A stretch of DNA of 20,191 nucleotides from a virus: the IMG/VR virus record IMGVR_UViG_3300036785_000016, positions 1 to 20,191 of that record. The stretch is one strand, 5' to 3'. Position numbers and translations under genes: made by a program. Position 1 is the first letter of the stretch; the number at the start of each line of letters is the position of its first letter. Below the pieces are notes generated by a model. It was not told the DNA's origin. It worked only from the letters and a program-made list of their open reading frames with translations, and made no database searches. This document shows, one piece after another, positions 12,222-20,191 of the stretch.

Positions 12222-12504
12222 TTCTTTCCCTCATCATTGTGATATAGTGATCTGGGCATGACGCCATGATGTCCCCGAGCAGATTAAGGCCGACCTCCCT
12301 TTGGCCTTCCATAAAGGCCATTCTGTTGGAGGAATCAGCATACGAAGTGGCGAAGATATGGCAGTGCTCAAGAAGCTGACACATCCAGCCTCGACCAGGC
12401 GCAACTGACATAATACCGGCAACAATTTCACGGCGCTGCTGCTCCTCGAGCTTAGCTTGTTTCTCGAGCCGACGAACGTCCTTCTTGTTCCCTGCGTCGT
12501 ACAT
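12067..12504 (-). CDS. Bbp19-like phage protein
   Basis: A 145-residue protein starting MYDAGNKKDVRRLEKQAKLE. The basic N-terminal helix (RRLEKQAKLEEQQRREIVAG) is followed by IMSVAPGRGWMCQLLEHCHI, FATSYADSSNRMAFMEGQRE and VGLNLLGDIMASCPDHYITM. I recognise this as the Bbp19 type of Bordetella phage BPP-1: a small, conserved protein encoded between the portal and scaffold genes, of unknown function. Residues from about 95 on lie in the segment shared with the scaffold gene and are acidic and Gly-rich (QGSDDDTSGDDAADEHYYRD). Only the first 90 or so residues match the family core in my recollection, so the tail may be a by-product of the overlap. The start overlaps the upstream gene by 53 bases. 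Confidence 0.8.
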   Translation of the reverse strand: MYDAGNKKDVRRLEKQAKLEEQQRREIVAGIMSVAPGRGWMCQLLEHCHIFATSYADSSNRMAFMEGQREVGLNLLGDIMASCPDHYITMMRERNERSTISDVRNRKDTYGRDPGQGSDDDTSGDDAADEHYYRDYLGADGKEPS

Positions 12505-12655
12505 TTAACATCTCATCGTAAATAGCATCTACTACTATCGCCCTTAGCATCTCTTGCATTGTCAAAGCATGACGAGTACAGATTTCCTTTAGGACACCAG
12601 CTTCTTCCTTAGTAAGTCGGCAAGATATGACATGATCTTTGAGAACGTCCTTCAT
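12452..12655 (-). CDS. Putative ribbon-helix-helix protein
   Basis: A 67-residue protein starting MKDVLKDHVISCRLTKEEAG. The layout fits the CopG/Arc ribbon-helix-helix fold: a strand (HVISCRLT), a first helix (KEEAGVLKEICTRHA), a turn and a second helix (TMQEMLRAIVVDAIYDEM). Such proteins bind operator DNA as dimers using the strand pair. The ATG overlaps the portal stop by 4 bases (ATGA), and AGGAG lies only one base before it, which is closer than usual, so coupling from the portal is likely. The Arg-rich tail (VRRREQEGRSSARETS) overlaps the next gene's start by 53 bases. DNA binding is inferred from pattern; the protein could instead be a small structural helper. Confidence 0.6.
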   Translation of the reverse strand: MKDVLKDHVISCRLTKEEAGVLKEICTRHALTMQEMLRAIVVDAIYDEMLNVRRREQEGRSSARETS

Positions 12656-19081: not shown

Positions 19082-19744
19082 TTAGATCCGCCGCTTAAAC
19101 TTAAGAACTTGCGCTTTGACATTAGGCTTTATCTCGGGCTCCTGGCCTAAGATGGTGTGCTTGGGCTTTGGTAGGTTTTCTAGGCCTTCGGCCTTTAACT
19201 CCGGAGCAATCTCAATAATCGGGATTCGCTTAACGGTGTGGGTACGGGCAATGGCTCTATCTAGCATCTGCGCAAAGTCGACCGAGATATTGGTTTGAAC
19301 CGAGCGTTTGCTAAGGCCCACCCTATCTGCTGAATCTCGAGATATGCTAATTAGCTCTCGGACCGAGAGTTCCTCAGTCTCATCATCATCATCAAGCTTA
19401 TCGGCGAGTTTGCGCTCGGCCTTAAGGCCATTCTCCAGCATCATCTTATAATAAGCTTGCATTCCATCTCTAATCGGGGCCTCATCAATGGCTCGCTTTT
19501 CATCGACTAGATCGCTAAATGCTGGGGTGCCCCTAAGCACAGAAACCCTCGCCAAAGAATACCCCGTAATTTCGGCAACTTCTCGAGTTCGCAGGCCACA
19601 TGCAAACAGTTGGGCCATGCGATGGTGACTATCTCGAAATCGCTTAACGGCAGGCACTGCCCCTCGCTTAACGTTAAATAGCTCCGTCAAGCTTATTTCG
19701 CGAACTCCGAGGATTTGCGCCGCTTTCGGGGATCTTCCTGACAT
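19082..19744 (-). CDS. Terminase small subunit-like DNA-binding protein
   Basis: A 220-residue protein starting MSGRSPKAAQILGVREISLT. It is the first gene of the leftward operon, 20 to 25 bases downstream of a consensus promoter start. Residues about 42-75 (RMAQLFACGLRTREVAEITG then YSLARVSVLRG) form a helix-turn-helix of the kind small terminases use to recognise the packaging site. The middle is helical (YYKMMLENGLKAERKLADKL) with an acidic patch DDDDETEE at 118-125, and the C-terminus is basic (LKFKRRI), where the contact with the large subunit often lies. Position ahead of the large terminase supports the call, although four genes separate them. No catalytic residues are expected. Confidence 0.8.
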   Translation of the reverse strand: MSGRSPKAAQILGVREISLTELFNVKRGAVPAVKRFRDSHHRMAQLFACGLRTREVAEITGYSLARVSVLRGTPAFSDLVDEKRAIDEAPIRDGMQAYYKMMLENGLKAERKLADKLDDDDETEELSVRELISISRDSADRVGLSKRSVQTNISVDFAQMLDRAIARTHTVKRIPIIEIAPELKAEGLENLPKPKHTILGQEPEIKPNVKAQVLKFKRRI

Positions 19745-19770: not shown

Positions 19771-19799
19771 ATTATAGCATAAATTCGCCATTTTGTCAA
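19771..19799 (-). promoter_or_regulatory. Consensus sigma-70 promoter for the leftward virion operon
   Basis: On the minus strand, TTGACA (19799-19794) and TATAAT (19776-19771) are both perfect consensus hexamers with a 17-base spacer, and TGC directly before TATAAT gives an extended -10. Transcription would start near 19764, about 20 bases before the small terminase ATG. This is the only clear promoter in the window and probably drives all leftward genes. Confidence 0.93.
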
Positions 19800-19839
19800 C
19801 TCTTAATTTCACGCGTGTATACAAAAACATTCACTTTCC

Positions 19840-19850: not shown

Positions 19851-19980
19851 GAAAACCCAGGTATGGCTCATTGAAATAATAGAATTTTTGCGCAGGCCCT
19901 CTGGCTGGCGGCGAGAGCTCGAGTTTGGGCCCCGGCGCCCCAAGCGATGGCGCAGACCATGTTGCAATGCACAACGGATA

Positions 19981-20033
19981 ATGGTGCGGTGCACCATCAC
20001 GAACCCGTGATGTCTGATCACGCACTCGTGATC
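19981..20033. promoter_or_regulatory. Cluster of three perfect inverted repeats, likely operators
   Basis: Dyad 1 (19981-19997) is ATGGTGC-GGT-GCACCAT. Dyad 2 (19995-20012) is CATCACG-AACC-CGTGATG. Dyad 3 (20016-20033) is GATCACG-CACT-CGTGATC. All arms are perfect 7-mers. Dyads 2 and 3 share the half-site ATCACG/CGTGAT with four-base spacers, and their centres (20003.5 and 20024.5) are 21 bases apart, two helical turns. This is what dimeric repressors or activators use; a terminase-binding (cos/pac-type) site is an alternative. Confidence 0.65.
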
Positions 20034-20090
20034 GAACCTTGGCGCTGGCCGTGGTACTAATGGGCATCGACCGACACCCAGGAGCAAGAC

Positions 20091-20191
20091 ATGATGAAAT
20101 CGGAGCTACTCCAACAATACGGCAAATACCAATCCATGCCAGAGTTTCATCAAGGTTGGGATGATTACATGGCCAACAAGTGGAACCATAG
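20091..20191 (+). CDS. 5' end of a rightward gene, cut by window edge
   Basis: The only convincing plus-strand gene start. ATG at 20091 has AGGAG 6 bases upstream (CCCAGGAGCAAGAC). The 33 visible residues begin MMKSELLQQYGKYQSMPEFH and continue QGWDDYMANKWNH without a stop; the composition is that of a normal soluble protein, with Gln, Tyr and Trp. An in-frame stop lies ten codons upstream, so the start is constrained to near here. It diverges from the virion operon and has the dyad cluster about 60 bases upstream. Too little is visible to name a function. Confidence 0.6.
   Translation, partial: MMKSELLQQYGKYQSMPEFHQGWDDYMANKWNH

Follow-up and report, generated by a model that had tools for sequence, protein, structure and literature searches.

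A record of 20,191 bases in IMG/VR, from a virus of soil bacteria, analysed here over its whole length and referred to as the window, carries in its early-gene control region an apparent twin operator, ATCACG-N4-CGTGAT, in which each dyad is a near-perfect predicted site for CenR. CenR is an OmpR-family response regulator, which together with CenK makes up a two-component system of Alphaproteobacteria. On balance, and with slightly better than even confidence, we read the two dyads as twin CenR boxes through which this host two-component regulator would control the early promoter of the phage.

The gene content of the window is that of an epsilon15-like phage. Its capsid protein is nearest to those of epsilon15-like phages, and the nearest large terminase of a named phage is that of Pseudomonas phage AF (47.5%). 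The virion operon runs leftward from the small terminase gene terS (19744), and three dyads are found 180-230 bp beyond the terS promoter, ahead of a rightward frame, with the end of the contig just past them (Table 1). The placement of the dyads in a divergent region, proposed in the first-pass annotation, is borne out directly on the left side, where terS is read leftward from a perfect promoter; on the right side the window holds only a short truncated frame, and early genes are confirmed there in relatives. The promoter scan of the window found no consensus rightward promoter near 20032..20060. The -35 hexamer of the candidate placed there, TCGAAC, shares its first base with the end of the dyad, and a relative (L015) has TTGAAC-18-TACTAA at this position.

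Table 1. Features of the divergent region of the window.
Feature	Position	Strand	Remarks
Small terminase gene terS	19082..19744	-	220 aa, weak HTH_23 match; homologues in relatives
Sigma-70 promoter of terS and virion operon, perfect TTGACA-17-TATAAT	19771..19799	-	Promoter scan; conserved in relatives
Second conserved element, AATTTTTGCG ... about 35 bp ... TTTGGGCCCC	19878..19942		Between terS promoter and dyads
Exact TGCAnTGCA box, TGCAATGCAC	19963..19972	+	Left of twin element
First dyad, ATGGTGC-GGT-GCACCAT	19981..19997		Perfect 7-base arms
Upstream twin dyad, ATCACG-AACC-CGTGAT	19996..20011		7-base arms 19995-20012, CATCACG-AACC-CGTGATG; PWM 21.7 of 24.9
Promoter-proximal twin dyad, ATCACG-CACT-CGTGAT	20017..20032		7-base arms 20016-20033, GATCACG-CACT-CGTGATC; PWM 22.3 of 24.9
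Candidate weak rightward early promoter, TCGAAC-17-TACTAA	20032..20060	+	Placed by position
Rightward early reading frame, MMKSELLQQYGKYQ...	20091..20191	+	Start only, truncated by contig end; early genes here in relatives

Other conserved features accompany this region. A TGTATACA palindrome, present also in L002-L006, lies 16 bp upstream of the -35 of the late promoter (window 19771-19823), as would suit a late activator. The first early gene is small in L092 (11448-11702) and in its homologues (L008 12079-12465, G006, G008, G025 and G027), which have a conserved '(S)VYGxGKFPVTLYKSQW' domain with no PHROG or curated Pfam match.

The three dyads with perfect 7-base arms are packed into 53 bases as originally described, at 19981-19997, 19995-20012 and 20016-20033, and none of 400 dinucleotide shuffles of the window had three separate dyad centres in a stretch of 53 bp. 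The second and third share their half-site and four-base spacer, and the two-turn phasing claimed for them holds, their centres (20003.5 and 20024.5) being 21.0 bp apart; a pair of N4 dyads with the same half-site at 21 bp appeared in 0 of 300 shuffles of the window. The picture of three inverted repeats in a row stands in that all three exist, but the first dyad, which overlaps the second by 3 bases, is a separate motif outside the repeat. It is a diverged copy of a TGCAnTGCA box that is conserved beside the twin dyads: with at most one mismatch, this box adjoins 10 of 22 dyad sites, versus 3% of random stretches. The box at window 19963-19997 is possibly the site of a second regulator.

An exact-pair scan of IMG/VR gave matches that included L007, a relative with a 61%-identical terminase and a twin pair at the corresponding place, and L008, another relative with the exact pair in its early region. 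Further pairs were found in 80 loci gathered by large terminase alone, the motif not being used. In the combined phage set, to which three contigs retrieved with the pattern itself belong, ATCACG was the commonest of all 4096 N4 dyads (19 copies; the next had 9), and its letter permutations had a mean of 0.16 copies. Nearby site pairs were exactly 21 bp apart in 14 of 17 cases (one each in the window, L012, L013, L016, L021, L028, L033, L047, L049 and L070, which is the same contig as L007, and two each in L008 and L083). Core positions T, A, C and T, G, A were invariant in 32 sites, with variable loops, flanks and linker. The half-site can be written WTCACR, and the full element is WTCACR-N4-YGTGAW twice, with centres 21 bp apart. 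Conservation in related phages, on which the first-pass annotation had made its reading depend, is thus found for both the dyads and their spacing.

A relaxed scan across IMG/VR, allowing gaps of 0 to 30, returned 103 stretches, from which 83 distinct pairs were read. The spacing was 21 bp in 33 of these, a few of them near-identical copies of one phage; the next commonest spacing was 18 bp, with 10 pairs that were mostly tandem repeats. About a dozen of the 33 pairs belong to phages without detected relatedness to this epsilon15-like family, including L168 and L215, where the twin pair adjoins a likely small terminase gene. Five come from a different group, with a 21-bp phased TCACATnnATGTGA inside an open reading frame (L171 7554, L174 9702, L222 10670, L224 5204 and L233 2788); here the pair adjoins a likely AAA ATPase gene and is iteron-like. 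A search for named relatives of the other twin-bearing phages gave no matches.

In the phages that carry it, the twin pair is found either between terS and the divergently read early genes or just ahead of an early gene, and L008 and G043 have a second pair ahead of another early gene. A -35 hexamer starts at the dyad edge or one base before it in L070, L083, L037 and L057 (two sites), followed by a -10 seventeen or eighteen bases after the -35, one of those in L057 being poor. L015 shows this arrangement weakly. The motif GCCACAAT recurs 19 or 41 bp past the last dyad, positions that are two helical turns apart, in L008, G043 (L102), L021, L047, L012, L013 and L019. It is possibly the early -10 element, but it was not established statistically by the mean score per offset, and we therefore put no weight on it. 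Taken together, the constant arms, the base-exact spacing and the second pairs of L008 and G043 form the pattern of an operator, occupied twice on one helix face by a dimeric protein.

The candidate for that protein came from a full-text literature search with the gapped consensus, which led to a paper on CenK-CenR of Sinorhizobium meliloti (PMC9561847). Inverted repeats of the form TCAC-N6-GTGA, AGTCAC-N6-GTGACT at srlA and ATTCACGACGTTGTGAAT at SMc01226, immediately precede the -35 there, and their centres are 42 bp away from the transcription start; srlA is controlled by CenK-CenR, its promoter is less active when point changes are made in the repeat, and a class II activator is proposed by the authors (PMC9561847). 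Of the 31 CenR sites published for Rhodobacter sphaeroides, whose motif its authors describe as a direct repeat TGA-N8-TGA, 28 are directly upstream of a -35 (PMC9275681). Read column by column, these 31 sites have the majority consensus TCACG-N4-CGTGA in the register of the phage dyad, with which it agrees at each of the ten informative positions; of 5000 permutations of the columns, none was as similar. The R. sphaeroides sites take the form T[CG][AG]C[GA]-N4-[CT]GTGA, and the phage dyads conform to TCACR-N4-YGTGA. Related regulators, such as EssR or ChvI, could share this consensus.

On bacterial chromosomes, single dyads were found in 121 of 398 sampled Pseudomonadota genomes at near-chance density, several of them preceding secreted or lipoprotein genes. 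The 21-bp twin was absent from the same sample except for one MAG labelled Betaproteobacteria, and is therefore phage-specific. No strong (autoregulatory) site was found in the regions upstream of OmpR-type genes of one probable alphaproteobacterial genome. Among 84,980 bacterial and archaeal genomes, exact twin dyads occurred only in one Lake Baikal MAG, as tandem repeats of 23 and 21 bp (L010 345-383, L011 5169-5205) that precede two genes, likely those for a D-aminoacyl-tRNA deacylase and recJ. Single ATCACGNNNNCGTGAT sites were seen at one conserved locus in large, probably Bradyrhizobium-like proteobacterial genomes (L144-L146, L149-L152) and before a small lipoprotein gene (L154, L159 and L160). 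These loci are possible members of a chromosomal CenR regulon.

Dimer sites two helical turns apart place their proteins on one face of the DNA, where they could bind cooperatively. We infer that CenR dimers would occupy both dyads in this way and that the proximal dimer would touch RNA polymerase at the early promoter. The proximal site is beside or over the early -35, so phosphorylated CenR would most likely be a class II activator; with the opposite sign, CenR would repress the rightward early promoter. Early transcription would then follow CenR activity, and the early genes of the phage would be coupled to the envelope or physiological state of the host.

The first-pass annotation had proposed cooperative binding by a phage regulator or by the terminase. 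What survives of this is a DNA-binding regulator with two sites on one face in a divergent control region. A phage-encoded helix-turn-helix repressor or regulator, as in epsilon15, is the strongest alternative to CenR, and we regard it as unlikely. Two sites on one helix face are typical of cooperative phage repressors. Epsilon15 is a phage of similar kind, with seven annotated repressor sites ATTACC-N4/5-GGTAAT, one of which, a 16-17 bp dyad at 12-27, immediately precedes terS. The half-site of our dyads, however, differs from ATTACC, and the dyads are confined to one or two places per genome, whereas the epsilon15 sites are scattered. No HTH_3, integrase or OmpR-type protein turned up in the near-complete, twin-bearing genomes G011 and G029, in searches that did pick up the repressor and the integrase of epsilon15, the positive control. 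When twin-bearing and twin-less contigs were compared, no gene segregated with the dyads. The lack of a phage repressor in G011 and G029, together with the lack of a gene that follows the dyads, points to a host protein, and the identical 21-bp twin in phages without detected relatedness likewise argues against a phage-encoded repressor. A phage regulator is therefore less likely than a host one, whose site the dyads match in the case of CenR.

Ribbon-helix-helix (RHH) proteins were considered in two forms. The one encoded at 12452-12655, in the virion operon, had been named earlier as a protein that might bind the dyads, but its gene was not detected in the twin-bearing G029 and G002. It is also improbable, in our judgement, that a small RHH protein of the early operon autoregulates the early promoters by binding each of the four ATCAC half-sites, which are spaced by 10 and 11 bp. 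Such an RHH-like protein is kept in the early operon of G011, G029, L008 and others, and the RHH protein Omega recognises WATCACW heptads (PMC9499535). Against this, Omega requires contiguous 7-bp repeats (PMC9499535), single sites in the phages are always complete dyads, and G023 has identical RHH strand residues (ITKVTLNL) and no dyads; a fold search with the modelled early RHH protein gave weak ParD-like matches only.

A part in replication or packaging is less probable still. Phased palindromes that come as a pair in a large intergenic stretch would fit an origin of phage replication to which an initiator of the phage or of the host binds, as would the 21-bp phased TCACATnnATGTGA that another phage group has in a reading frame by a likely AAA ATPase gene. 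We think this quite improbable: the dyads are in two copies in some genomes, are absent from close relatives with the same replication genes and are tied to promoter position. Slightly less credible again is a pac or cos site recognised by the small terminase. The dyads do adjoin terS in the window and in several unrelated phages (L009, L168 and L215), but the terminase is rejected as the binder because the TerS of G023 is 70% identical to that of G011 and the dyads are present only in G011. Furthermore, in two phages there are two pairs, separated by more than 1 kb and each ahead of an early gene, and a better packaging candidate than the dyads is the AATTTTTGCG...TTTGGGCCCC element, which is common to phages with and without the dyads and is a possible packaging site.

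The last alternative, RNA stem-loops or bidirectional terminators, can practically be dismissed: each pair of arms could form a 7-bp stem, but there is no T-run, no terminator was found in the window scan, the folding z-score is -1.1, 13 of 32 sites lack an intact outer pair, pairing after shuffling 3' halves among the 32 sites equals that observed, and RNA stems would leave the 21-bp spacing unexplained. Half-sites are constant, loops are variable and covariation is no higher than in the shuffles; the element is therefore a DNA site and not an RNA stem. An Rfam search of the region gave no match, and a tRNA gene reading of it was rejected after a tRNA gene search.

With regard to the hosts, the twin-bearing phages are more depleted in GANTC, the site recognised by CcrM, than in any other of the 16 palindromic 5-mers, although moderately so (0.66 pooled). 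The corresponding ratios are 0.35 and 0.02 in Caulobacter phages, 0.93 in epsilon15 and, a mild depletion, 0.78 in Pseudomonas phage AF. Caulobacter phages are also among the distant relatives. Both observations are suggestive only, and are consistent with the proposed alphaproteobacterial hosts.

Few cases are known in which phages without evident lysogeny genes read the state of the host through a host transcription factor, such as Spo0A in phi29 and CtrA in Caulobacterales phages (PMC9437464). If the dyads prove to be CenR boxes, envelope signals would join these inputs, in about thirty environmental phages with one exact geometry. The prediction would be testable at once with published CenR proteins, and the element would hint at Alphaproteobacteria as the hosts of many orphan soil phages and provide a sequence signature for finding more such phages. 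More tentatively, and at somewhat less than even confidence, we suggest that several unrelated environmental phage lineages have independently acquired the 21-bp twin CenR box in the control region of their early or terminase genes, so that an essential envelope-stress regulator gates their early transcription.

In half-site consensus, the ARG box differs from the phage dyads. E. coli ArgR ARG-box pairs nevertheless have a comparable geometry, two 18-bp palindromes with 3 bp between them, 21 bp centre to centre on one helix face (PMC6640053). The WATCACW heptads of Omega (ParB of pSM19035) have the ATCAC core in common with the phage dyads but are contiguous 7-bp repeats, while the phage half-sites are arranged as dyads, 10 and 11 bp apart (PMC9499535). 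The repressor operators of epsilon15 (NC_004775), a phage with related capsid and terminase, resemble the dyads of the window in being 16-17 bp dyads of which one is immediately upstream of terS; they differ in their half-site and in being seven scattered unpaired sites in a phage with its own repressor and integrase. The CenR sites of Alphaproteobacteria share with the phage dyads their consensus, their register and, in several relatives, the place upstream of the -35, and CenR-site promoters are described as class II or as having the site directly upstream of the -35 (PMC9275681, PMC9561847). The phage dyads are more symmetric than these sites, including those of R. sphaeroides, are usually paired at exactly 21 bp, an arrangement not reported for CenR, and stand at viral early promoters. 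No link between CenR and phages was found in the library searched, which covered mainly open-access journal papers. By analogy, the nearest precedent for twin CenR boxes is CtrA in alphaproteobacterial phages, where the divergent region next to the terminase contains a cluster of sites for a host response regulator ('lytic deferment', PMC9437464). CtrA boxes are TTAA-N7-TTAA, of which our records have 0 in all but one, which has 1, and CtrA is linked to the cell cycle, whereas CenR, the regulator proposed here, is linked to the envelope. The twin CenR box, with a geometry unseen in the host's own regulon, may accordingly be viewed, as a conjecture we hold at a little under even confidence, as the envelope-sensing counterpart of CtrA-controlled lytic deferment.
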